Source: Candidatus Thermoplasmatota archaeon
GTDB taxonomy: Archaea > Thermoplasmatota > SW-10-69-26 > JACQPN01 > JAIVGT01
Direction: 5' to 3'
DNA length: 48,441 nt
Assembly (NCBI GenBank): GCA_035541015.1
Contig: DATLFM010000110.1
Location: 1 to 48,441 of the forward strand
How positions within the stretch are numbered: position 1 is the stretch's first letter; each line of letters starts with the position of its first letter. The notes under the pieces are model-generated. The model ran no database searches. It saw only the letters and a list, made by a program, of their open reading frames with translations, and was not told the origin of the DNA. Shown piece by piece: positions 3,156 through 48,441 of this stretch. The position numbers and the translations under genes are program-made.

Positions 3156-4303
3156 GCCCCCGCCGACTGCTCGTCCCCGCCGCGCTTGCGATCGCCCTCC
3201 TTCTCGCCGGGTGCGCCGCGCCCCCGCCGCGGTCCCCGGACCCCGGCCCGGACGACGTCAAGGGCTACGACGGGACGTCGTGGCCGCGCCTCTCCGGCGT
3301 GACGCTCACGATCCTCGACCACGGCGCCCCGTGGGGCTTCGAGGAGGCCAAGCAGCGGTTCGAGAACCTCACCGGCGCGCGCGTGCTGCAGGTGCAGGCC
3401 GACGACACGGGAGCCGCGCTTGCGCGGGCCATCCGGGAGAAGGGCGCGCCCAGCTTCGACGTGATCTACGGCCTCGACAACGTCCTTCTCGCTCGCGCGG
3501 AGGCCGAGGGCATCCTCCACGCGTACAAGCCGTTCCTTGCCGACCGCGTGGACGCGCGCTACCGGTTCTTCCCGGACTCGGGCGCGTGGCCGGCCACGCC
3601 CGTCGACCACGGGTACATCGCGATCAACTGGGACCCCCGCCACCCGGACCTTCGCGAAGCCCACCTCGAGAGCCTGCTCGACGTCCGTGACCACGCGCGC
3701 CTGTTCGTCACGCAGGACCCGCGAACGAGCACGCCGGGCCTGGGCTTTCTCCTCGCGACGATCGCCACGTTCCCGGAGGGCGCGCCGTACGACTGGAAGG
3801 CGTACTGGCGCGACCTCTTTTCCGGCGGCGTCGTCGTGACGGCGGGCTGGACCGAGGCGTACGAGCAGCGTTTCAGCGGCGGCTACGGCGTGGACGCGGG
3901 CGGGCTTGGCGACAAGCCGATCGTCACGAGCTACAGCACGAGCCCCGCGTACGAGCATTTCTATGGGCGGCCGCGGGAGGACGCCGCGTCGGCGCTCGTG
4001 GCCGACAACGCGACCTTCCAGCAGATCCAGACCATGGCCATCCTGAAGGGAACGCGAAACCTGCTTGCAGCCAAAGCCTGGATCGAGTGGACGCTCACGG
4101 ACGAGTTCCAGGACATGGCCGCGCCGCTGCGCGCGGTCTACCCCGCGGTGCCGGGCGTTCGCGTGAACGGCACCTTTGCCGACCTCGACCCCGCCCCCGA
4201 CACGTTCGTTCCCGCCCGCTTCGAGTACCGGGATCTCGCGCAGCGGCTCGAGACGTGGGTCCGGCAGTGGGTCGACCTCTGCGAGGCGGCGAACTGCGCG
4301 TGA
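3152..4303 (+). CDS. thiB: Thiamine ABC transporter, substrate-binding lipoprotein
   Basis: A 383-residue protein that captures thiamine outside the cell. The start at 3152 overlaps the thiR stop (ATGA) and gives a lipoprotein signal with lipobox LLAGC at residues 18-22. Several stretches match the ThiB/TbpA family: FDVIYGLDNVLLARA, the segment DHGYIAINWD, the diagnostic TQDPRTSTPGLGFLL, and VTSYSTSPAYEH. These line the thiamine site in the family. It is a little longer than bacterial ThiB. ThiP and ThiQ follow directly with four-base overlaps, giving a complete importer. Confidence 0.93.
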   Translation: MSPRRLLVPAALAIALLLAGCAAPPPRSPDPGPDDVKGYDGTSWPRLSGVTLTILDHGAPWGFEEAKQRFENLTGARVLQVQADDTGAALARAIREKGAPSFDVIYGLDNVLLARAEAEGILHAYKPFLADRVDARYRFFPDSGAWPATPVDHGYIAINWDPRHPDLREAHLESLLDVRDHARLFVTQDPRTSTPGLGFLLATIATFPEGAPYDWKAYWRDLFSGGVVVTAGWTEAYEQRFSGGYGVDAGGLGDKPIVTSYSTSPAYEHFYGRPREDAASALVADNATFQQIQTMAILKGTRNLLAAKAWIEWTLTDEFQDMAAPLRAVYPAVPGVRVNGTFADLDPAPDTFVPARFEYRDLAQRLETWVRQWVDLCEAANCA

Positions 4304-5931
4304 CGCTTGCTCCCGTCGCCCGGCGGACGGCGCTCCTTCTTCTGGCCGCGCCGGTCGCCTTCCTCGCGACGTTCTTCTTTGGCCCGCTTGCCGTCGTCCT
4401 GGCCGCAGCGCCCCCGGGAAGCGCCGCGTGGGAGTGGATGGGGTCGGACTACGTCCGAGGGCGCGTCGGGGGCGCGGTCTTGCAGGCCGCGCTGTCGGTC
4501 GCGCTCACGCTCTTGGTCGCGGCCCCGCTCGCGTGGTTCCTCCACCGCCGCCGCGTGCCGTGGACGCGCGCGCAGCTTGCCGTGCACGCCGCGCCGTTCG
4601 TGCTTCCCGTCTTCGTCGTCGTGTACGGCGTGCAGCACGCGCTGGGTCCCCGCGGGCTTTCGGCAACCCTTCTTGGCGTCGACGCCTTGGCCGCCGTGGG
4701 TCCGCTGGGCGCCGTCGTGATCGCGCACGCGTACTACAACTACGGATTTGCCGCGCGCGTGCTCCACGGCACCCTCGAGCGGCGGCCGGTTGCGCTGGAG
4801 GAGGCCGCGCGCACGCTGGGGGCGCCGCCCACCTCGGCGTTCCTTCGCGTCACGCTGCCGGCGCTGTGGCCCGCGTTTGCGGCCGTCGCCGTCCTCGTGT
4901 TCCTGCTCACCTTCGCGAGCTTTGGCGTCGTGTTGTTCCTGGGCCAGGGACAAGTCTCCACGCTCGAGACCATGCTCTACCAGAACCTCGGCGGCGCGTT
5001 CCCGCGCGAGGATCGGGCCGCTGCGCTGGGCCTCCTGCAGCTTGTCGTGAACGTGGGCCTCTTCGCGGCGTACTTCGGCCTTCGCCGCCGCGACCTCTCC
5101 GTTCCCCTTGGCGCCGCCGCGCGCCGGGCGCCCGCGCGCCGGCGCGACCTTGCCCTTGCGGCGGCGTTCCTTGCGGTGGCCCTCGTTCCCCCGCTTGCCG
5201 TCTTCGCAGGCGCCTTCCGCGTGGGAAACGAGTGGAGCCTCGAAGCCTGGCGCGCGGTGTGGGACGCAAGCCACCCGCGCCACCTCGCCGGCTTCGACCT
5301 TCCCGCCGTCGTCGCCCGCAGCCTCGCCTACGCAGCGGCCACCGTCGCGCTTGCGCTCTCGTTCACGCTCTTGCTTGCCTACGGGTCGCGCGCGTTCCCG
5401 CGCCGCGCGCGCCAGGTCCTCGAGGGCGCGGCGGCCCTCCCGCTTGGCGTCTCGAGCCTCCTTGTCGGCCTCGGGCTCCTGCTGTCCTTTGGCGCGGGAA
5501 GCGCCTTCGACCTTCGCGAGAGCGCCGCGCTTGTCGTGATCGCCCACGCGCTGCTCGCGTTCCCGTTTGCCGCGCGCCTCGTGCTGCCCGCGCTCGACCT
5601 CCGCGACCGGCGCCTCGACGAGGCGGCCGCGACGCTTGGCGCGCGACCGTTGGACGTCGTCCGTCGGGTGCACCTGCCACAGCTGCGCGGGCCGCTTCTG
5701 CTGGCCGCCGGGCTTGCCGCGGCGGTCAGCCTGGGCGACTTTGGCGCAAGCCTTCTGCTCGCCCGCGACGACACGGCCACCCTTGCGGTCTGGATCGCCC
5801 GCATGGACGCGCCCTTCGACCCGCTTCGCAAGGCCCAGGCCACCGCGCTTGCCGCCATCCTCATGCTGCTTGCCGCCATGGCCTACCTCGTGGTCGAGCG
5901 CGCGCGCCCCCGGGGAGTGGCCGAGGCTTGA
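4300..5931 (+). CDS. thiP: Thiamine ABC transporter, fused-duplicate permease
   Basis: A 543-residue integral membrane protein with about 12 hydrophobic helices, made of two homologous halves as in bacterial ThiP and FbpB. Each half carries an EAA loop that docks the ATPase: EEAARTLGAPPTSAFLRVTLP and DEAAATLGARPLDVVRRVHLP. I chose GTG 4300 because it overlaps the thiB stop (GTGA) and puts a hydrophobic helix right after VTLAPVARR; in-frame codons upstream lie inside thiB. It forms the thiamine channel with ThiB and ThiQ. Confidence 0.93.
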   Translation: MTLAPVARRTALLLLAAPVAFLATFFFGPLAVVLAAAPPGSAAWEWMGSDYVRGRVGGAVLQAALSVALTLLVAAPLAWFLHRRRVPWTRAQLAVHAAPFVLPVFVVVYGVQHALGPRGLSATLLGVDALAAVGPLGAVVIAHAYYNYGFAARVLHGTLERRPVALEEAARTLGAPPTSAFLRVTLPALWPAFAAVAVLVFLLTFASFGVVLFLGQGQVSTLETMLYQNLGGAFPREDRAAALGLLQLVVNVGLFAAYFGLRRRDLSVPLGAAARRAPARRRDLALAAAFLAVALVPPLAVFAGAFRVGNEWSLEAWRAVWDASHPRHLAGFDLPAVVARSLAYAAATVALALSFTLLLAYGSRAFPRRARQVLEGAAALPLGVSSLLVGLGLLLSFGAGSAFDLRESAALVVIAHALLAFPFAARLVLPALDLRDRRLDEAAATLGARPLDVVRRVHLPQLRGPLLLAAGLAAAVSLGDFGASLLLARDDTATLAVWIARMDAPFDPLRKAQATALAAILMLLAAMAYLVVERARPRGVAEA

Positions 5932-6593
5932 CGCTCCGCATCGAGAACCTCGAGTTCACGTACCCCGGCTGGCCGCCCACGCTGCGCGGCGCAAGCCTCG
6001 CCGTCCCGGCGGGCGAGTCGGGCTTCCTCCTTGGCCCCTCCGGAAGCGGCAAAAGCACGCTCCTCCGCTGCGTCGCCGGCCTCGAACGGGACTACCGCGG
6101 CACGATCCGCTGGAACGACGACCCCCTCGACCCGCTGGCGCCCCACGCGCGCCGCGTCGGAATGCTCTTCCAGGAGCCCGCGCTCTTCCCCCACCTCTCC
6201 GTGCGCGAGAACGTGGCCTTTGGCATGCGGTACCAGGGAATCCCCCGCGACCGCGAGCGCGCGGAAGCCCAGTCGTGGCTGGCCCTCGTCGAGCTTGCGG
6301 GCAAGGCCGACGCGCGGCCCGACGAGCTCTCCGGCGGCGAGCGGCAACGCGTCGCGCTTGCGCGCACGCTTGCCGCCCGGCCGCGCGCCGTGCTCCTCGA
6401 CGAGCCCATGAGCGCGCTCGACCGCGACCTGCGCGACGAGCTTGCTCCGCGCGTGAAAGCGCTCCTTGCCGAACGCAAGGTCGCCGCGCTGTGGGTCACG
6501 CACGACCGCGACGAGGCCCGCCGCCTCGCCGACCGCCTCTGGACGCTCGTGGACGGCCGCTGCGTCGAAGGGCTTCCGGAGGCGCGCGCATGA
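5928..6593 (+). CDS. thiQ: Thiamine ABC transporter, ATP-binding protein
   Basis: A 221-residue ABC ATPase. Walker A GPSGSGKST is at residues 36-44, a Q loop at FQEP (81-84), the signature LSGGERQR at 134-141, Walker B VLLDEP at 155-160 and the switch His in VTHD. The start is TTG 5928, overlapping the thiP stop as TTGA; no ATG or GTG in frame fits better, and the resulting N-terminus LTLRIENLEFTYPG is typical of these ATPases. It powers the ThiBP importer from the cytoplasmic side. Confidence 0.92.
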   Translation: MTLRIENLEFTYPGWPPTLRGASLAVPAGESGFLLGPSGSGKSTLLRCVAGLERDYRGTIRWNDDPLDPLAPHARRVGMLFQEPALFPHLSVRENVAFGMRYQGIPRDRERAEAQSWLALVELAGKADARPDELSGGERQRVALARTLAARPRAVLLDEPMSALDRDLRDELAPRVKALLAERKVAALWVTHDRDEARRLADRLWTLVDGRCVEGLPEARA

Positions 6594-7216
6594 TCGTCGG
6601 CCTCGTGCTCCACGGCGACGCCCCCGGCGAACGGGAGCTTCGGCTCCTCGACGCCTGCGACGTCCTCGTGTGCGCCGACGGCGGCGCCAACGGCCTCGTC
6701 GCCGCCGGCCGCATCCCCGACTGGATCGTCGGCGACTTCGACTCCATCGACCCGGCCGTGCTGGAGAAGTGCCGCGGCGCCAACCTCGTCGAGCTTCCCC
6801 GCCGCAAGGACTTCACCGACGGCGAGGCCGCCCTCAAGAAGGCCCTCGAACTCTCGCCGCGGCGCCTCCTTATCGCGGGCGCGCACGGCGGCTCCACGGC
6901 CCACTTCCTCGCGAACGTCGCGCTCCTGCGCCGCGCACAAGCCTCCGGCGTCGAGACGCTCATGGTCGGCGCCGGCGAGACGCTCCGCTTCGTCCCCGCG
7001 CCCGGAAGGCTTCCGCTTCCCCCGCGCGGCGCGCGCTTCCACCTCCTGCCCGAAGCCGGCGGCGCCACGGTCACGCTCCAAGGCACCGCCTACGACATCG
7101 AGAGACAGCCGCTTGCGTGGGGATCCTCGCGCGGGCTCTCAAACCGCGTCGAGCGCGACGGCGCGCTGCTGTCCGTACACGAAGGCGTCGTGCTCCTCGT
7201 CGCGGAGGGACCGTGA
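6590..7216 (+). CDS. Thiamine pyrophosphokinase
   Basis: A 208-residue enzyme that transfers pyrophosphate from ATP to thiamine, giving thiamine diphosphate directly. Family motifs are in order: ADGGAN at 29-34, WIVGDFDSID at 45-54, and DFTDGE at 74-79, which corresponds to the metal-binding D-x-T-D. The ATG overlaps the thiQ stop (ATGA), and the gene follows a thiamine importer, so it most likely activates imported thiamine. Archaeal 6-hydroxymethylpterin pyrophosphokinase (MptE) belongs to the same superfamily, but the operon favours thiamine. Confidence 0.87.
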   Translation: MIVGLVLHGDAPGERELRLLDACDVLVCADGGANGLVAAGRIPDWIVGDFDSIDPAVLEKCRGANLVELPRRKDFTDGEAALKKALELSPRRLLIAGAHGGSTAHFLANVALLRRAQASGVETLMVGAGETLRFVPAPGRLPLPPRGARFHLLPEAGGATVTLQGTAYDIERQPLAWGSSRGLSNRVERDGALLSVHEGVVLLVAEGP

Positions 7217-7788
7217 CCGCGAGGTTCCTTGCGCCGCCCGACGACGGCGACGTCGCCTACGAGTTCTACGCGCCATACGCACACGTGCCGGGCCGCTTCG
7301 AGTGGATCCGCCTCCGCACGCGCACGCACGGCACCTTCGACGCCTTCGTGCTTCTCCCCGCCGACGCAAACGCCGCGCCCGACGTCTTCGTCAACTCGGA
7401 CGACGGCAGCGACTTCCTCCACGAGCGCTTCCCCGAAGCGCGAGCCTGGCGCGTGCCCGAGCGGGCGCTTCGCATCGACGAGCGCGACGCGGGCCGCACC
7501 GTCGCCGGCCGGCTTCGCTCGGAGGACGGCCCGCTGCGCGAGGCGGACATGGTCCTCTCCGTACCGATCCGCGAGCCGCCGCAGACCGTGCGACACGGCG
7601 GCGAGGGCGCGCCGCGTTGGGGAAGCAAACAGTGGACGGGCTGGGGCGTCGACCTCGCGCTTCGCGCAACGGCCGCGGGCACGATCCGGTGGGCGGAACG
7701 GCACCGTCCGGAGGACCTGCGCGCCGTGCCCGCCGTCGTCACGCTTGGAAGCTTCCGACGGATCGCGTCCCGCCCGAGCGCGCCCTGA
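7213..7788 (+). CDS. Unknown protein, last gene of the thiamine operon
   Basis: A 191-residue soluble protein starting at GTG 7213, which overlaps the preceding stop as GTGA, so it is translationally coupled to the pyrophosphokinase. I do not recognise the family. The sequence alternates short beta-like strands with acidic loops (NSDDGSD, RIDERDAG) and has a Trp-rich centre (SKQWTGWGVDL). There is no signal peptide or membrane helix. Position suggests a role in thiamine handling, but nothing in the sequence itself shows that. Confidence 0.7.
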   Translation: MTARFLAPPDDGDVAYEFYAPYAHVPGRFEWIRLRTRTHGTFDAFVLLPADANAAPDVFVNSDDGSDFLHERFPEARAWRVPERALRIDERDAGRTVAGRLRSEDGPLREADMVLSVPIREPPQTVRHGGEGAPRWGSKQWTGWGVDLALRATAAGTIRWAERHRPEDLRAVPAVVTLGSFRRIASRPSAP

Positions 7789-7792
7789 GCCG

Positions 7793-7823
7793 GTATGTAT
7801 ACATACGTATACGTGTGTATACG
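7793..7823. promoter_or_regulatory. Phased GTATAC operator, copy 1
   Basis: Three GTATAC palindromes lie at 7797, 7807 and 7817, exactly 10 bp apart and so on one face of the helix. The first sits in the perfect 14-bp palindrome GTATGTATACATAC (7793-7806) and the second in ACGTATACGT (7805-7814). The block ends 12 bp before the ATG of the RHH gene. Tandem 10-bp repeats are the usual operator form for RHH (CopG/Arc-type) dimers, so autoregulation is likely. A near-copy lies at 32176-32205. Confidence 0.75.
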
Positions 7824-7834
7824 CCGCGGTTCCC

Positions 7835-7999
7835 ATGGCAAAGAAGCAGACGACGATCCGCATCCCCGTCGCGCTCCGCGACCGCCTCGCCCGCCACCGC
7901 GCGCACCCGCGCGAGTCGCTCGCTGACGTCGTCGCCCGCGCGCTCGACGCCGCAGAGGGCAAGGCGGGCGCGCAGCTTGGCGCGTCCGCGCGGCTGTAG
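7835..7999 (+). CDS. Small ribbon-helix-helix DNA-binding protein
   Basis: A 54-residue protein with the pattern of the RHH fold: a short N-terminal beta strand (QTTIRIPVALRDRLARH) followed by two helices (ESLADVVARALDAAE). RHH proteins bind DNA as dimers that insert a beta ribbon in the major groove and often repress their own gene. ATG 7835 is the only sensible start and lies just downstream of the phased GTATAC palindromes. It is the best candidate for the protein that binds those sites and the matching set at 32176. Confidence 0.8.
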   Translation: MAKKQTTIRIPVALRDRLARHRAHPRESLADVVARALDAAEGKAGAQLGASARL

Positions 8000-8048
8000 C
8001 CGCCGCGTCGGCGGTACGCTTATCTCACCCGCGCGTGTAACCGTACGC

Positions 8049-9386
8049 ATGGCTTCGGGTTCGCCCCACACGCTTGCGGAGAAGATCCTCGCTCTCAAGG
8101 CGGGCAAGCGCGAGGTGTCGCCCGGCGAGATCGTGGACGCGAAGGTGGACGTCGCCATGGCGCACGAGGCGTGCGCGCAGGTCGTAAAGCCGCTCGACGA
8201 GATGGGCGCGACGAAGCTTTGGGACCCCGACCGCGTGGTCGTGCCGATCGACCACTGGGTTCCCGCGTCGACCGAGGCGTCGGCCAAGCTCCACGCGACG
8301 ATCCGCGAGTTCGTGCAGAAGTGGGGCATTCGCCACTTCTACGACATCGGGAACCAGGGCATCTGCCATCAGATCATGGTCGAGGAGGGCTTCGTGCTGC
8401 CCGGCGACCTCATGGTCGGCACGGACAGCCACAGCAACATGGCCGGCGCGATGGGCGCGTTTGCATCCGGAATCGGCCCCACGGAGATGGCCGCCGTCAT
8501 GGCCACGGGCGAGATCTGGCTTCGCGTTCCCGAGACCTTCCGCATGCGCATCACGGGCGAGCTGTCGTTCCCCGTGCAGAGCAAGGACCTCGTGCTCTCG
8601 ATCATCGGGAGAATCGGCGACGACGGCGGCCGCTACATGGCCGTCGAGTTCGACGGCTCGGCCATCGAGAAGATGCCCATGTACGAGCGCTTCACGCTCA
8701 CCAACATGACGACCGAGATGGGGGCGAAGACCGGCATCATTCCCGCCGACGCAAAGACGCTCGAATACCTCCGCAACGTCGACGTCAAGAACGGGCGGCG
8801 CGGCGAGGTCGAGCGGTACGCGGGCCTGCGCAGCGACGCGAACGCGCGTTTTGCCAAGTCGATCGAGATCGACGCCTCGGCGCTCGAGCCCGTCGTCGCC
8901 ATGCCGCACTCGCCCGACAACGTGCGGCCCGTGCGCGAGGTGGACGTGCCGCGCGTCGACCAAGTCTTCGTGGGCTCGTGCACGAACGCGCGGCTCGAGG
9001 ACATGCGCACGCTTGCCCGGATCATCAAGGGACAGAAGGTGGCCCGCGGAACGCGCCTTGTCGTCTTCCCCGCCTCCACGTCGATCTACAAGCAGTGCCT
9101 CAAGGAAGGCATCGTCGAGATCGTCACCGAGGCCGGCGGCATCTTCAACGCTGCTTCGTGCGGCGCGTGCTTTGGCGGAATGGGCGGCGTGCTCGCCTCG
9201 CAGGAAATCTGCGTCTCCACGAGCAACCGCAACTACGTCGGGCGCATGGGCCACCCCAAATCGCTCTCGTACCTCGTCTCGCCCGCCACGGCGGCGGTCA
9301 CGGCGATCGAGGGCCGGCTCGTGGACCCGCGCGAGTTCGTGGGCAAGGAGATGCGGCGCGACATCGAGCGGCCGATGACGGCGTGA
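8049..9386 (+). CDS. leuC: Aconitase-family dehydratase large subunit (3-isopropylmalate dehydratase / homoaconitase type)
   Basis: A 445-residue protein. The Fe-S cluster ligands are Cys311 (GSCTNARLEDM) and Cys371/Cys374 (SCGACFGG). The segment PIDHWVPAS and the length match the archaeal large-subunit group that includes LeuC and methanogen HacA, not the longer one-chain aconitases. Such enzymes need a separate small subunit, which sets substrate choice; none is seen in this window. So isopropylmalate, homocitrate or another 2-hydroxyacid cannot be decided here. A CTTATCT box about 28 bp before ATG 8049 supports that start. Confidence 0.85.
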   Translation: MASGSPHTLAEKILALKAGKREVSPGEIVDAKVDVAMAHEACAQVVKPLDEMGATKLWDPDRVVVPIDHWVPASTEASAKLHATIREFVQKWGIRHFYDIGNQGICHQIMVEEGFVLPGDLMVGTDSHSNMAGAMGAFASGIGPTEMAAVMATGEIWLRVPETFRMRITGELSFPVQSKDLVLSIIGRIGDDGGRYMAVEFDGSAIEKMPMYERFTLTNMTTEMGAKTGIIPADAKTLEYLRNVDVKNGRRGEVERYAGLRSDANARFAKSIEIDASALEPVVAMPHSPDNVRPVREVDVPRVDQVFVGSCTNARLEDMRTLARIIKGQKVARGTRLVVFPASTSIYKQCLKEGIVEIVTEAGGIFNAASCGACFGGMGGVLASQEICVSTSNRNYVGRMGHPKSLSYLVSPATAAVTAIEGRLVDPREFVGKEMRRDIERPMTA

Positions 9387-9432
9387 GCCCTTCGGCAGTC
9401 ATCCGCTTGCTTGAACTCGAGCCCAAGTAGGT

Positions 9433-9440
9433 CTTAAGAT
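9433..9440 (+). promoter_or_regulatory. TATA-like box before membrane paralogue 1
   Basis: CTTAAGAT lies 25-28 bp upstream of GTG 9462, consistent with a leaderless mRNA. Similar TTAAG-centred boxes precede other genes here (10858, 13520, 20414, 32875). Confidence 0.45.
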
Positions 9441-9461
9441 TCCCTACCGCTTGGGCGGTTC

Positions 9462-10745
9462 GTGGACTGGGAGCTCACGACCGCGTTCAACGTAGCCGGC
9501 GGCGTCGCGGTGATCGCCTTTGGCCTGTTCGTGGCTTCCGTGCGGCCCCGGACGGAGCAGGCGACGGCCGTCGCAGCATTCCTGTTTGCTTTTGGTGCCG
9601 CCGTTTCCTGCATCAACTTGGCCGTCGTCGCGGGCCCCGCGTCGCCGCTTGTCCTGGCATTGTCGTGGGCTGCCGCGGGATTCTCGGTTGCGCAGATTGC
9701 AGCAACGGCCTTCGTGCTGAGGGTCGTCCCGGCCCGGCTTGCGCCCGGCGAGCGCGTGCTTCTCTTGATTCCCGTCGTTACCGTTGCGGCAATGGCCTGG
9801 GCGGGCCGTGGCGTTTTGACGGACGAGTCACCCACCATCGCAGCGCTTGGCCCGGGCGTACCGTTCTACCTTTTCTTCGCATGGATCAGCCTGGGCCTGT
9901 GGTATGGGTTGCTGCTTGTGATGGCGGCGCGCGTCGCCCGCCGCGCGGCGGCTCCGGCGATCCTCGAACGAACGCCGCTGCTTGCCGCCGCGCTCACGTT
10001 CTATCCGTTCAGCAGCACCGGCCGAGCCTTCTCCACGGATCCGGTGATCCGTGGGGCGTCGGAGCTTTTCGTCGTGTTTGCAGTCGTGGTCGCGCTCGCG
10101 TGGCTTTGGTCGTGGCATCGCGCGGGCAGACCGAGAGTCGGGAGAAACCTCGCGTGGCTTGGGCTTGGAATCGCCGTGGCGGGGCTTCTGGAAGGCGCGC
10201 TTGCGGGGGCGGAGTTCGGCAGCGGGATCGGCCTCAACGGCATCGCGCGCCTGCTCACGGTTGCCGTCCTGTCGTACGCGGTCGTCCGGCACCAGCTCCT
10301 GGGCATCGACGTGAAAGTCCGTTGGGGCATCAGCAAGACGACCGTCGCCGCGATCTTCATCACGGTGTTCTTCGTCATCAGCGAAGCGGCGCAAGTGGTT
10401 TTTTCGACCGAGGACAACGAGTACTTCGGCATCGCCGCGGCGGCCCTTCTCGTCTTTGCGATTGCGCCGCTCATGCAGTTTGCCGACCGGGTGGCGCACG
10501 CGGCGGTTCCGGTCGGCTCGCCGACAACGGCCACGCCGGCTGGAACTCCCGCGTCCCGTCGGCAGGACGTCTATCGCGCGGCGGTGCGGTATGCGATCCG
10601 CGAGGGGAGGGTGACGAGGGCCGAGGAGCGCCACTTGGCCGATCTTGCGGCCGAGCTTGGCATCGACGCGTCGACGGCGCTGTCCCTCCGCGAGACCGTC
10701 GAAAAGGAAGCGTCGCAAGCGTCGACGGAGGCGCGTTGGGCGTGA
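9462..10745 (+). CDS. Polytopic membrane sensor-like protein, paralogue 1
   Basis: A 427-residue protein with about 10 hydrophobic helices and a short cytoplasmic tail. Around residues 270-290 the phrase YAVVRHQLLGIDVKVRWGIS resembles the end of the 7TM sensor region of some histidine kinases (YAI-R-RL-DID). Two more helices follow, including VFFVISEAAQVVF and GIAAAALLVFAIAPL. The tail, about residues 365-425, is a helical domain (YRAAVRYAIREGRVTRAEERHLADLAAELGID) that I liken to short TerB-like or EF-hand-like modules. There is no kinase domain. Three full paralogues lie in the window. Function is unknown; sensing is inferred from the resemblance only. Confidence 0.75.
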   Translation: MDWELTTAFNVAGGVAVIAFGLFVASVRPRTEQATAVAAFLFAFGAAVSCINLAVVAGPASPLVLALSWAAAGFSVAQIAATAFVLRVVPARLAPGERVLLLIPVVTVAAMAWAGRGVLTDESPTIAALGPGVPFYLFFAWISLGLWYGLLLVMAARVARRAAAPAILERTPLLAAALTFYPFSSTGRAFSTDPVIRGASELFVVFAVVVALAWLWSWHRAGRPRVGRNLAWLGLGIAVAGLLEGALAGAEFGSGIGLNGIARLLTVAVLSYAVVRHQLLGIDVKVRWGISKTTVAAIFITVFFVISEAAQVVFSTEDNEYFGIAAAALLVFAIAPLMQFADRVAHAAVPVGSPTTATPAGTPASRRQDVYRAAVRYAIREGRVTRAEERHLADLAAELGIDASTALSLRETVEKEASQASTEARWA

Positions 10746-44805: not shown

Positions 44806-45399
44806 CTAGCCAAATCGCTCGGGCACGGCGCGGAACTCGGAGACCTTCTCCCGCAGCACGTCGAAGACCGCTTGCGCCGTCACGACCTCGTCGGGATCGG
44901 CGGGCGTTCCCGGCTGCACGAAGGTCAGCGTTTCGAGGTACGGGTGCGATCGTCCGGCCTTCCAGCCGACAAGCGCGGCCGCGTACTCTCGGCGCGCGTC
45001 GTCCACGCCGCGGTTGCCCGTGACGATCTCGTGGGCGAGGTTCAAGGCGAGCCTTGCGGCCTCCTCGCTGTCGCAGCGGGCGGAGACCTCGCCCTTCGTG
45101 CGCTCGGGGATGACGCTTCCGTGGAAGCGCGCGAGGTCCGAGAACCGCTCGACGGGCGTGCGATAGTCCACGAAGCATTCGAGGAAGTCGCCGTGCGGGA
45201 GGGGGAAATCGTGGTGCACGATGTCCCGGTACGCGACGATCCGTTTCCAGGGTCCAACCGAGCGCCAGAGGAGGAAGCTTGGGCCGGCCTCCTCCGGCTC
45301 GCCGTAGCGGTCGAGGAGCTCGCGCGCCGCGTCGGCCGGTCCCTGGGGCCACTCGTCGAGCAGGGCGAGCACGCGCTCGCGCGTGGGAATGTCGATCAT
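44806..45399 (-). CDS. Conserved protein of unknown function
   Basis: A 197-residue soluble protein from ATG 45399. It contains a compact conserved-looking core: LDRYGEPEEAGPSFLLWRS, GPWKRIVAYRDIVHHDFPLPHGD, FVDYRTPVERFSDLARFHGS, ERTKGEVSARCDSEEAARLALNLAHEI. I recall similar proteins annotated as hypothetical in several bacterial phyla, so it may be a transferred gene; no activity is known to me. Codon use is like its neighbours. Confidence 0.7.
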   Translation of the reverse strand: MIDIPTRERVLALLDEWPQGPADAARELLDRYGEPEEAGPSFLLWRSVGPWKRIVAYRDIVHHDFPLPHGDFLECFVDYRTPVERFSDLARFHGSVIPERTKGEVSARCDSEEAARLALNLAHEIVTGNRGVDDARREYAAALVGWKAGRSHPYLETLTFVQPGTPADPDEVVTAQAVFDVLREKVSEFRAVPERFG

Positions 45400-45571
45400 A
45401 GGGGTACCATCGCGCCTTGGCGTTGGGGTGGGCTTGCGGTTTGGGGAACAAGGCGCGGTGGAAGACGGCGGCCGTCGGCGGCGCCCGGTCGCAAGCGGGC
45501 GCTTGCCCGGCGGGCCTTCCCGTTGCCAAGCGCTATGGAAGCGGGCGTCCACTCACGGGCGAGGGAAGCCA

Positions 45572-45853
45572 ATGGAACCGCCGAACCCGATGCGCATGGA
45601 ACTGCAGCCCCGCCGCGTCCGCCAGTCGCCCCGCGAGGTCAAGGTCAAGCTCTCGCACCCGACGTGCATCCGCCTCCACGCCCAGAAGATCCTTCGGGGG
45701 CAGGGTATTTCGGCCACGGTCGAGACGGCCCTCAAGGAGTATTTCGAGCGCCTGGCCGGCCAGCCCGGCGCGTTGACGCCCGAGCAGATGGTCGCCGCGG
45801 GGCTGACGAGCGCGCTTGCCGGCGGCGACGAGCGGATCGCCTTCGACGCCTGA
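45572..45853 (+). CDS. Ribbon-helix-helix type DNA-binding protein
   Basis: About 93 residues from ATG 45572 (ATGs at 45590 and 45596 also possible). A beta strand REVKVKLSHPTCIRLHAQKI followed by helices (GISATVETALKEYFERLAG) fits an RHH domain; a 30-residue helical tail follows. It is longer than the RHH protein at 7835 and not its close relative. It is the last host-like gene before the putative attachment site. Confidence 0.6.
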   Translation: MEPPNPMRMELQPRRVRQSPREVKVKLSHPTCIRLHAQKILRGQGISATVETALKEYFERLAGQPGALTPEQMVAAGLTSALAGGDERIAFDA

Positions 45854-45899
45854 GGGTCACGATGAAAAACGGTGCCGGCGCGCGGGCGCCGGGACGTAG

Positions 45900-45919
45900 T
45901 GCTCCTGTCGGGATTTGAA
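45900..45919 (-). repeat. tRNA 3'-end-like fragment, candidate attachment site of the integrated element
   Basis: On the minus strand these 20 bases read TTCAAAT-CCCGA-CAGGAGC-A, exactly the lengths of a T loop (7), 3' T-stem strand (5), 3' acceptor strand (7) and discriminator base. The bases before it (GGTTGAC) cannot pair with the T stem, so no full tRNA is present. This is what a displaced tRNA 3' end looks like after integration at the T-loop position. Codon use changes to its right. Confidence 0.45.
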
Positions 45920-45988
45920 GTCAACCCGCCGGGAAAACGGGGAGGTAGACCCTAGCGTTTGGGCCCTACCGGGAAGCCGGTTCCTCAA

Positions 45989-46030
45989 GGCCCGCCAAGC
46001 GGCGGGCCACCCCTCTTTTTTCTTCTTTTG
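45989..46030 (+). terminator. Strong hairpin with T-rich tail before the methylase gene
   Basis: GGCCCGCC (45989-45996) pairs perfectly with GGCGGGCC (46001-46008) around AAGC, followed by TCTTTTTTCTTCTTTT. It would stop plus-strand transcripts entering from the left, insulating the element, or serve as an attenuator of the methylase gene, which starts 25 bp later. The 200-bp gap 45854-46054 holds this, the tRNA-like fragment and no ORF I can support. Confidence 0.65.
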
Positions 46031-46054
46031 CGCGGGCCAGCGGAGGCAAGGGGC

Positions 46055-46888
46055 ATGAGGTCGCCGATCAAGTGGTTCGGCGGCAAGAGCCTCCTTGCCG
46101 AAACGATCGTTCGGCGCATTCCGAAGCACGAATGCTACGTCGAAGTTTTCGGCGGCGCGGCATGGGTCCTGTTCCGAAAGGAACGGTCCAAGTCGGAGAT
46201 CTACAACGACATCCACGCCGATCTCGTCAACTTCTTCCGCGTTCTTCGGAATCAGCAAGACGAGTTCCTTCGGAAAGCCAAGTTCCTGATGCCAAGCCGC
46301 GACGACTTCCTTCGGGCGCGGGATGAACCCCGGGAACCGCTCGATCCCGTCGAACGCGCCCTACGGTTCTACCTTCTCGTCAGCCAGTCGTTCAACTGCA
46401 ACCTGCGGGAATACCGACCCACCAAGACGCGCCCGCCAAGCCGCGTCGACATGGACCGCCTTCGGGAAGCAAGCCAGCGGTTGCAGCGAGTCTGGATCGA
46501 GCGATTGGACTTCGAGGAATTGATCCGGCGGTACGATAGCCCGCAGACGTTCTTCTTCCTCGACCCACCCTATGCCCCGATCAAGTTTACAAGCGGCGTC
46601 TACGGATGGTCCGACCCCGAACACGACCGCCTGAAGCGCGTCGTTGCCGGAATCAAGGGCCGCTTCCTGATGACGTACCCGGACTGGCCCCGCCTCCGGG
46701 AACTCTGGTCGGAATACCCAACGGAACGGATTCCGACCCAATACCGCAGCTTCAACCGCGAAGCGCAGCCACGCTACGCGGACGTGCTGCTCATCTCGAA
46801 CTACGACACCGCGAAAGTCTGCCCGCTGGTTCGCCCGGGATTCGCGGAAACGGTGGTGAACCTCGATGATCTACAAACTGAACCTTAG
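46055..46888 (+). CDS. dam: D12-class DNA N6-adenine methyltransferase
   Basis: A 277-residue methylase. Motif order is that of the Dam/DpnM class: KWFGGK near the N-terminus (6-11), the AdoMet motif EVFGGAAWVLF (30-40), and the catalytic motif LDPPYAP with DPPY at 170-173. GGAGG eight bases upstream of ATG 46055 is a good ribosome site. Dam-type enzymes usually methylate GATC; the target here is not shown. No cognate endonuclease is next to it, so it may protect element DNA from host restriction. Confidence 0.9.
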   Translation: MRSPIKWFGGKSLLAETIVRRIPKHECYVEVFGGAAWVLFRKERSKSEIYNDIHADLVNFFRVLRNQQDEFLRKAKFLMPSRDDFLRARDEPREPLDPVERALRFYLLVSQSFNCNLREYRPTKTRPPSRVDMDRLREASQRLQRVWIERLDFEELIRRYDSPQTFFFLDPPYAPIKFTSGVYGWSDPEHDRLKRVVAGIKGRFLMTYPDWPRLRELWSEYPTERIPTQYRSFNREAQPRYADVLLISNYDTAKVCPLVRPGFAETVVNLDDLQTEP

Positions 46889-47018
46889 CACCCAGCAGGT
46901 CTTGCGACTGATCCAACTTGGCGAAAGTCCCGACAACCTCGAATGCCTCACGGAATCCCAAAAAGACACGCTACGGAACCTTGCAGCGGAACTTCGGCAA
47001 CGCCTGGAGGCGCTCTAA
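46866..47018 (+). CDS. Small element protein, 50 residues
   Basis: Starts at ATG 46866 inside the methylase 3' end (23-bp overlap, other frame) and runs to TAA 47016. The product is helical and hydrophilic (LNLSTQQVLRLIQLGESPDN then QKDTLRNLAAELRQRLEAL). It uses GAA for Glu four times out of five, like the rest of the element. The next ATG follows the stop directly. Unknown function. Confidence 0.6.
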   Translation: MIYKLNLSTQQVLRLIQLGESPDNLECLTESQKDTLRNLAAELRQRLEAL

Positions 47019-47186
47019 ATGGTCTACGAAGAAACGGAACGAATCCTTGCCGTCATCACGACGCGCGTGAGCTCGCAAGGACGCCTCTACCTCAAGAAAT
47101 ACCGGGGACGTCCCGTTCGGATTCTCGTGCTCTTGGACGACCCGAACGTCGCGCGCCCGTTCATTGATGGCCGACGGAGGCTGTAG
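47019..47186 (+). CDS. Small AbrB-like element protein, 55 residues
   Basis: ATG 47019 follows the previous TAA with no gap, so the two are a translational unit. The centre (ITTRVSSQGRLYLKKYRGRP then VRILVLLDD) resembles the swapped-hairpin AbrB/MazE DNA-binding fold (V-x-x-x-G-R-x-x-L-x-K-x-x-G). That is a weak, by-eye match. Ends 5 bp before a convergent gene. Confidence 0.5.
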   Translation: MVYEETERILAVITTRVSSQGRLYLKKYRGRPVRILVLLDDPNVARPFIDGRRRL

Positions 47187-47191
47187 TCCGC

Positions 47192-47494
47192 CTACCGGCG
47201 TCGAACCTCGTAAGAGAAACTCACGATCCGGTCGGCGATGCGGCTTGCATCGCTGTCCGACATTTGGCGAAGCGTTCTATCCAACGGATCGTCGCCGGGA
47301 CCTTGCTTGGTCCCGGTCAAGCTGTTAATGATCGATTCGTGCTCTTGCCAGAGTTTCTCTTCCTTGAGGTCCATTTTCTGAAGCCGCATGATGCTAATGT
47401 AGGCTTCCCGCAAACGGTGCTGGATTGAATCCGTGCCGATAGCAAGCGCGCGGACTGCGACGTCGTATTTTTCTTCCGGGTACGAGGACTTCAT
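47192..47494 (-). CDS. Element protein of unknown function
   Basis: A 100-residue helical protein (DSIQHRLREAYISIMRLQKM, DLKEEKLWQEHESIINSL, then SDASRIADRIVSFSYEVRRR). It is clearly coding by composition (Lys, Ile and Glu more frequent than in host genes). No signal, membrane helix or known motif. It lies downstream of the zinc-finger gene on the same strand. Confidence 0.6.
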   Translation of the reverse strand: MKSSYPEEKYDVAVRALAIGTDSIQHRLREAYISIMRLQKMDLKEEKLWQEHESIINSLTGTKQGPGDDPLDRTLRQMSDSDASRIADRIVSFSYEVRRR

Positions 47495-47560
47495 GCGCTC
47501 GGGAGGCTTCGCATGGCTCTTGAGACTTGCTGGAGGAGGAGACTCCCCCAGCGCATCCCC

Positions 47561-47929
47561 TTACGCCCGCGAAACTCGCGAGCGACGAGGCTTCTGCTGC
47601 CGGATCGCAGCCGCCTGTCGCGGCAAGGAACGGACCAAGCGCTGGAGGCGATACTCCGGCGCGGGCGTCCCAAGCTCCACGACGACGACTCCGCGCAGGC
47701 GACAACGACGCTGATGAAGTTCCAAGTTGCGGGGAAGGTAGCGCCGGAAGCACCATCGGCAGGCGGGATCGGGATTCCATTTGCAGGCGCTCTCGTGGAA
47801 CCATCGCCCCGTTCGGCTTGCGTACGGCTCGCCGCAATAAAGGCAGGGGTGCTTGCTTCCGATGCGCAGCAAGCGAAGGATTCCGTTCCGAATGCTGAGC
47901 TTGGTTTCCTTTCCGGTGATTCCGAACAT
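47561..47929 (-). CDS. Zinc-finger protein of the element
   Basis: A 122-residue protein from ATG 47929, with GGAG eight bases upstream. It carries two Cys/His knuckle pairs: HPCLYCGEPY then WFHESACKW, and CRWCFRRYL then ELHQRRC. This is typical of small DNA-binding zinc fingers in archaeal viruses and plasmids. The C-terminal 50 residues are basic. It starts 11 bp after the ATPase gene, so they are probably co-transcribed. Confidence 0.65.
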   Translation of the reverse strand: MFGITGKETKLSIRNGILRLLRIGSKHPCLYCGEPYASRTGRWFHESACKWNPDPACRWCFRRYLPRNLELHQRRCRLRGVVVVELGTPAPEYRLQRLVRSLPRQAAAIRQQKPRRSRVSRA

Positions 47930-47940
47930 GGTTTCATCTC

Positions 47941-48441
47941 CTATCCGAAGTGCGCGAAGTTTCCGATCTTGCTCGTATGCAGGACGAGCTCCAGTCCGTT
48001 CTTCTCGTTCACGTACAGGGCTTGGAACGGAAGCATTCGCGAAATGTAGGCGCCCACGCTTGGAAACCTTCCGGGAAGCGGGTTTCGGAAGAACGTGCTG
48101 ACGCGCTTGAGATCGTTGGGGTCGGTCATCTTCAGCGTGATTCGAACGTTGGCTTGCGAAGCCATCGTCGTGTCGAGCAGTTGCACTCGCTGGCTGACCA
48201 TGAGCAGGTCGTTGGCCTGCGTTCGCGCGTCGGTCACAAGGATCTGCGCGTAACGCGGCGTCTTACCTTGCGGAGCAACGACGTGCGCCTCCTCGATCAG
48301 CAAGACCGTATCGCCGCGGTCGTAGATCGCGTGCGCCAAGTGGTCGAAGGCTTCCAGCATCTCGTCGAGCGTCAAACCTTGCGGAACGATCCGCACGCTG
48401 GGAAACTTCGCGATGAGCTTGAGGAAGAACGAGTGCTTTTC
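47941..48441 (-). CDS. HerA/FtsK-like ATPase, C-terminal part (cut by window end)
   Basis: The frame is open to the right edge, so the N-terminal part including Walker A is missing. The visible part has Walker B with hhhhEE (DTVLLIEEAH), a sensor-like segment (VTDARTQANDLLMVSQR) and the following strand ANVRITLKMTDPNDLKRVS, as in HerA-type and conjugation or packaging ATPases. It would translocate DNA during packaging, transfer or segregation of the element. Confidence 0.75.
   Translation of the reverse strand, partial: EKHSFFLKLIAKFPSVRIVPQGLTLDEMLEAFDHLAHAIYDRGDTVLLIEEAHVVAPQGKTPRYAQILVTDARTQANDLLMVSQRVQLLDTTMASQANVRITLKMTDPNDLKRVSTFFRNPLPGRFPSVGAYISRMLPFQALYVNEKNGLELVLHTSKIGNFAHFG

Follow-up and report, generated by a model that had tools for sequence, protein, structure and literature searches.

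The last 2.5 kb of the window, which is the complete 48,441-base contig C110 of a 2.21-Mb bin in 114 contigs, very probably form the end of an integrated element, most likely a provirus of the icosahedral membrane-containing type, at the 3′ end of a tRNA-Glu gene. The 3′ ends of tRNA genes are common targets of the tyrosine recombinases of archaeal elements, and recombination there leaves direct repeats, attL and attR, at either end of the element, according to the available excerpts of two accounts (PMC8371274, PMC6563490). In the corresponding model for the window, the element's own tyrosine recombinase would recombine the chromosomal tRNA with attP, which holds a short copy of the tRNA 3′ end. 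The tRNA-Glu gene would stay functional at the far end of the element, beyond position 48441 on the minus strand, while the original 3′ end would be displaced to 45900–45919, where host DNA begins. The contig ends at 48441, and the far end of the element lies outside the assembled sequence. This element's intact tRNA-Glu, integrase, and other attachment site were not found in the bin, and the 2.5 kb of the element before the contig end contain no integrase gene. The named relatives of the proteasome gene are Thermoplasmata/Euryarchaeota metagenome-assembled genomes (58–61% identity). The features around the boundary are listed in Table 1.

Table 1. Features at the boundary and in the assembled part of the element (window coordinates)
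Feature	Position	Strand	Basis or remark
Host-side small protein, many-copy family in the phylum, ribbon-helix-helix-like by eye	45572–45853	+	No Pfam match
7-bp hairpin (45875–45892) and T5, host side, directly downstream of the fragment	45865–45892	−	
Putative displaced tRNA-Glu 3′ end, T loop to discriminator; host-side attachment-site copy	45900–45919	−	Sequence match and C5 parallel
Element left end, non-coding, conserved with C5:6724–6883	45920–46054	+	Sequence comparison of two elements
Hairpin 1 of left end, GGTAG/CTACC	45944–45948/45966–45970		
Hairpin 2 of left end, GGCCCGCC/GGCGGGCC, then T6 (46016–46021)	45989–45996/46001–46008		
D12-class DNA adenine methyltransferase, 277 aa, phage type (phrog_56)	46055–46888	+	Start taken as 46055
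50-aa ORF	46866–47018	+	Kept in second element (C5)
55-aa ORF	47019–47186	+	Kept in second element (C5)
100-aa ORF	47192–47494	−	No counterpart found on C5
122-aa cysteine/histidine-rich ORF	47561–47929	−	34% identity over 76 aa to C5 counterpart
P-loop ATPase, viral genome-packaging type	47941–48441	−	N terminus lost at contig end

A tRNA-Glu fragment at a break in composition

The minus strand at 45900–45919 reads TTCAAATCCCGACAGGAGCA and runs from the T loop through the acceptor strand to the discriminator. The first-pass annotation had described a fragment of this extent, on the strand expected of a displaced tRNA 3′ end, and both points hold. Its best match in the bin is the 3′ end of tRNA-Glu(UUC) on contig C75 (23603–23622, minus strand), with 18 of 20 bases identical. 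Besides the fragment's own position, this is the only site in the 2.21 Mb that matches the 20-mer with at most three mismatches (here two); no second exact copy occurs elsewhere in the bin, and the window contains no further tRNA-Glu fragment. The bases 5′ of TTCAAAT are GTTGAC and not the xCGGG of a T stem, so the fragment covers only the T loop to the discriminator. ARAGORN detected no tRNA in the window, and no Rfam family reached its gathering score anywhere in it; two weak Rfam matches around the boundary were taken as chance. Folding the boundary as RNA gave mild stability only (z −1.75).

The frequency of chance matches was estimated by comparing 35 of the genome's own tRNA 3′ ends (T loop to discriminator) with 60 Markov-1 random windows. 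A match to some own tRNA end with at most two mismatches appeared in 2/60 random windows (mean 0.03), compared with one observed, and a shorter degenerate core with three mismatches is expected about 1.8 times per window. Judged by its sequence alone, the fragment is suggestive, giving moderate but not conclusive support, and its position at the composition break is what makes the case strong. The G+C content is 69.3% for positions 1–45899 and 60.0% for 45920–48441, with 65.5% the lowest value for any 2,522-base segment of the left part (step 100 bases). The five genes measured left of the fragment have GC3 values of 0.84–0.95 and the six to its right values of 0.65–0.80, in agreement with the split between host-like and foreign-like codon use noted at first pass. 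That the 20 bases are a chance resemblance, with the foreign DNA having come by another route, is very improbable: random windows do yield equally good matches at the rate given above, and the 16 bases at C29:4770–4785 that match the tRNA-Glu end, within a signal-peptide-like coding stretch, were themselves taken as chance, but the fragment in the window lies at the composition break on the expected strand, and tRNA fragments occupy the corresponding place and strand in a homologous element on contig C5.

The host-side hairpin (Table 1) begins 8 bases past the fragment and is shorter than the hairpins behind other tRNAs; it is possibly, on weak grounds, an old tRNA 3′ flank or a terminator. 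Six of the genome's 38 own tRNAs (loci L002–L045) have a perfect hairpin (at least 8 bp, 3–4 base loop) within 6 bases, compared with 36 of 20,000 background positions, and these six hairpins are possibly tRNA terminators. The overall fold energy behind the tRNAs is barely different from background, whereas the stricter perfect-stem count does differ. No empty integration site was found in any relative examined; the left-flank protein (44806–45552) has no match in the 59 other genomes searched, and there is no tRNA at eight loci around the relatives' proteasome genes.

A second element with the same end structure

C5, a contig of the same bin, repeats the gene order of the element in the window: a methylase, two small ORFs, a weakly conserved Cys/His-rich ORF, and an ATPase. 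Between the two elements, the D12 methylases are 68% identical and the ATPases 81%. On C5, two fragments of a tRNA-Arg 3′ end lie on the minus strand at 6629–6651 (22/23 bases) and 6705–6723 (18/19 bases), 53 bp apart, between ABC-transporter-like host genes (by eye) and the methylase. The nearer fragment is 160 bp from the methylase, and the corresponding distance in the window is 135 bp. On its host side, the second C5 fragment (6705–6723) is followed by a hairpin of 10 perfectly paired bp around a 3-base loop, of the kind described above for six of the own tRNAs. Inside the fragments, the two elements have a non-coding stretch in common, with two hairpins and a T run after the second. When 389 genomes of a phylum sample were searched, this stretch matched in its own genome only.

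A directly oriented, displaced piece of a tRNA 3′ end, present here at one side of the element, is one of the marks of a tRNA-integrated element. Mainly because the C5 element has the same end structure, the proposal that the fragment is the left boundary of an integrated element is supported. Misjoining of a host contig and an element contig at a short repeat during assembly is hardly credible as the source of the junction. The bin is split into 114 contigs, the other junction is missing, and contigs C29 and C60 have an exact 57-base tRNA-Arg end in common, at which the assembly may have branched; against this, the 20-mer has no second exact copy in the bin, and on C5 a similarly built, independent junction involves other host DNA and another tRNA.

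The conserved-hairpin pattern was also found in six stretches of viral contigs, which were taken as chance matches with surrounding sequence unlike the element. A tblastn search (E 0.01) of ten element proteins against all loci gave no match in these six stretches.

Integrases and tRNA genes in the same bin

The bin contains two phage-integrase genes, on C60 and C25, each close to a tRNA. The C60 gene encodes a tyrosine recombinase and is convergent with an intact tRNA-Arg(CCG), its stop codon lying ~65 bases downstream of the tRNA. Between them is GGGAGAACGGGGGAGGTAGA (C60:12295–12314), the sole such site in the bin at up to three mismatches. It is near-identical, with one base missing and one changed, to GGGAAAACGGGGAGGTAGA just inside the boundary in the window, and this resemblance suggests that the pair is an element-end motif, perhaps an arm site. 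A scan of viral contigs with the C60 integrase found no relative.

The tRNA-Arg-adjoining element on C60 (locus L158, 2347–12252) is cut by the contig end and includes, in addition to the integrase, genes for a small ribbon-helix-helix protein, a subtilase-like protease, and a PKD-domain protein. The C25 integrase gene (locus L159, 2044–3092) lies close downstream of tRNA-Ala(GGC), and a further element probably ends at this locus. Because tRNA-Arg is involved on both C60 and C5, these two contigs might carry the opposite ends of a single element. No overlaps were found among the contig ends of C110, C5, C60, C25, and C29, and therefore we do not claim C60 and C5 as one element. The 57-base 3′ part of tRNA-Arg(CCG) on C60 (L158, 2227–2283) recurs exactly at the start of C29 (L086, 1–57), followed by different DNA there; this copy may be an attachment copy, an empty site of another strain, or an assembly branch.

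tRNA-Glu as a docking site in related genomes

The first-pass annotation had counted the lack of a tRNA with acceptor strand GCTCCTG in the genome as grounds against integration. No such tRNA was found in the bin, in formal agreement with that objection, while a tRNA-Glu with acceptor GCTCCTG/CAGGAGC, the type expected from the fragment, is present in two related genomes, G002 and G004. The objection carries little weight because G002 and G004 have this tRNA-Glu and because the bin, with 43 tRNA matches, lacks other expected tRNAs. Neither tRNA-Glu(CUC) nor tRNA-Asp nor tRNA-Trp is among the tRNAs identified in it, and given such gaps, the missing tRNA-Glu(CUC) says little.

Ten tRNA-Glu loci, two of which offered just 354 and 3,321 downstream bases, were searched for additional matches to the 3′ 20-mer, allowing up to four mismatches. 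Seven such copies were found, in five of the loci; all seven lie downstream on the same strand, with none upstream or on the opposite strand. The extra fragments of the tRNA-Glu genes on C75 and in G004 and G005 are 61–145 bp downstream. In G005:C1, an integrase ORF (L072:8992–9954) terminates within the 3′ part of the tRNA-Glu(CUC) gene, and ATCCCGACGGGACCA, a 15-base copy of the tRNA-Glu end, recurs ~8.4 kb downstream. An integrase ORF in G002:C25 likewise runs into tRNA-Glu(UUC) and is 31% identical to the C60 integrase.

Several of these loci have further structure. On C75, 145 bases separate the intact tRNA-Glu(UUC) from the second tRNA-Glu 3′ fragment downstream of it (L075, 9440–9455), and a partial copy in inverted orientation lies between the two. 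The G005 locus forms an 8.4-kb element (L072, 1141–9954) that has several tRNA 3′ fragments ~100–225 bp apart at its far end. In G002, three tandem cassettes of 2,210, 2,218, and 1,797 bases stand behind tRNA-Glu(CUC) (L067, G002:C15:157000–176900, 3582–9854), each terminating in the exact 16-base tRNA core AATCCCGGCGGGAGCA. Their first 90–100 bases are 81–88% alike, and in the two pairs with a BLAST alignment at the right end, ~25 bases there are similar. Each cassette has a different gene pair, by eye a helix-turn-helix protein and a nucleotidyltransferase-like protein. Among the six cassette proteins, Pfam identified a DUF6036 nucleotidyltransferase in one and a weak helix-turn-helix match in another; the remaining four gave no match. 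The three cassettes showed no integrase, and DNA-level BLAST, which detects close copies only, located such ends in no other genome among the 389.

Tandem insertions at one tRNA site are described for archaeal elements in the excerpts available (PMC8371274, PMC6563490), and the fragment in the window could be the scar of an older insertion, with the present element ending slightly further inside. The paired fragments on C5, the extra fragments at the tRNA-Glu genes of C75, G004, and G005, and the tandem array in G002 are all consistent with such a history. In the window, by contrast, a single fragment is seen, and the conserved element end starts within ~20 bases of it, making an older scar improbable and favoring the fragment as the boundary of the present element.

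Viral affinity of the ATPase

The ATPase was assigned to phrog_2666 at 1.2e-31 for the C5 copy and 1.6e-16 for the shorter copy in the window; the HCIV-1 ATPase falls in the same phrog_2666 (9.2e-77). Among 50,697 phage records, matches to the ATPase came only from SH1, PH1, HHIV-2, HCIV-1, and NVIV-1 (10 records), which are halophilic icosahedral viruses, and the best match among solved structures was STIV B204 (E 0.0024). In a quick tree with very long branches, the ATPases of both elements join four sphaerolipoviruses of the SH1 type (SH-aLRT 90), apart from 28 HerA proteins of the phylum, with NVIV-1 falling outside. Structure prediction of the ATPase gave a mean pLDDT of 36.8. Scans of viral contigs with the ATPase found no relative, and those with the methylase returned many phage-type methylases at 31–40%, which is little informative. 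The ATPase is closest to the packaging ATPases of Halopanivirales (SH1, HCIV-1, and relatives), as expected of a provirus of that kind, and therefore the element is probably a provirus. We infer that it makes virions.

Integration may be the correct reading and a virus the wrong passenger, the element being instead plasmid-like or another non-viral integrative element with an FtsK/HerA-type ATPase for partition or transfer. No capsid gene was seen in the 2.5 kb of the window's element or the 3.5 kb of the C5 element; a Halopanivirales-like provirus would have two single jelly-roll major capsid proteins, and the neighbors of the ATPase on its 5′ side fall beyond the contig ends of C110 and C5. 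HerA proteins of the phylum match the ATPase too, and its Pfam matches are to general P-loop families only. Yet in BLAST the packaging ATPases of the four sphaerolipoviruses align over 179–200 aa with 81–86 bits, compared with ~90 aa and up to 52 bits for the HerA proteins (NVIV-1, 49 bits), the HCIV-1 packaging ATPase shares the element's PHROG, and the methylase is of the phage type. We consider a non-viral passenger unlikely, although it deserves to be kept in view, and continue to prefer a provirus.

Relation to known elements and implications

In the available excerpts, archaeal tRNA-integrated elements (PMC8371274; thaumarchaeal set, PMC6563490) resemble the present one in having a tRNA 3′ end as target, a short direct repeat, and a displaced 3′ fragment. 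Here, in contrast, the displaced end alone is assembled, and the retained repeat starts from the T loop and spans ~20 bases. Haloarchaea contain sphaerolipovirus-like tailless icosahedral proviruses, for example HalaCibP1, between an integrase and a tRNA gene (PMC5332951, in excerpt). These have in common with the element in the window a packaging ATPase of the SH1/HCIV-1 kind and a tRNA at the end; they differ in that here the host is of the Thermoplasmata type, the ATPase is ~29% identical, and capsid genes and integrase are not in the assembled piece. Head-tailed proviruses, including one in Thermoplasmatota, were likewise recognized by tRNA, integrase, and direct repeats, as far as the excerpted account goes (PMC11705971). 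Those are Caudoviricetes, whereas no tail gene or tailed-virus terminase was seen in the element described here. A literature search that left most subscription journals outside its reach found no sphaerolipovirus-type provirus in Thermoplasmata. Docking sites of this kind at tRNAs are already known, and what is inserted here seems to be a virus relative about which little is known.

A broader idea, which we offer as speculation and think rather doubtful, is that the tRNA 3′ end serves as a general integron-like docking platform in the class, with proviruses giving the recombinase and non-autonomous cassettes using the 15–20 base core in trans. In that case the window's element would be one passenger and would represent the first lineage of SH1-like proviruses in Thermoplasmata-type archaea. 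The array of cassettes in G002 raises the question of cassette capture without a classical integron, and this side finding may prove the more valuable one.

One archaeal genome holds two related elements, docked at different tRNAs, and the 20-base fragment is a marker that shows where the rest of an unrecognized virus family may be sought. If capsid genes are found beyond the contig ends, the range of SH1-kind icosahedral membrane-containing viruses would extend to uncultured Thermoplasmata-type archaea.
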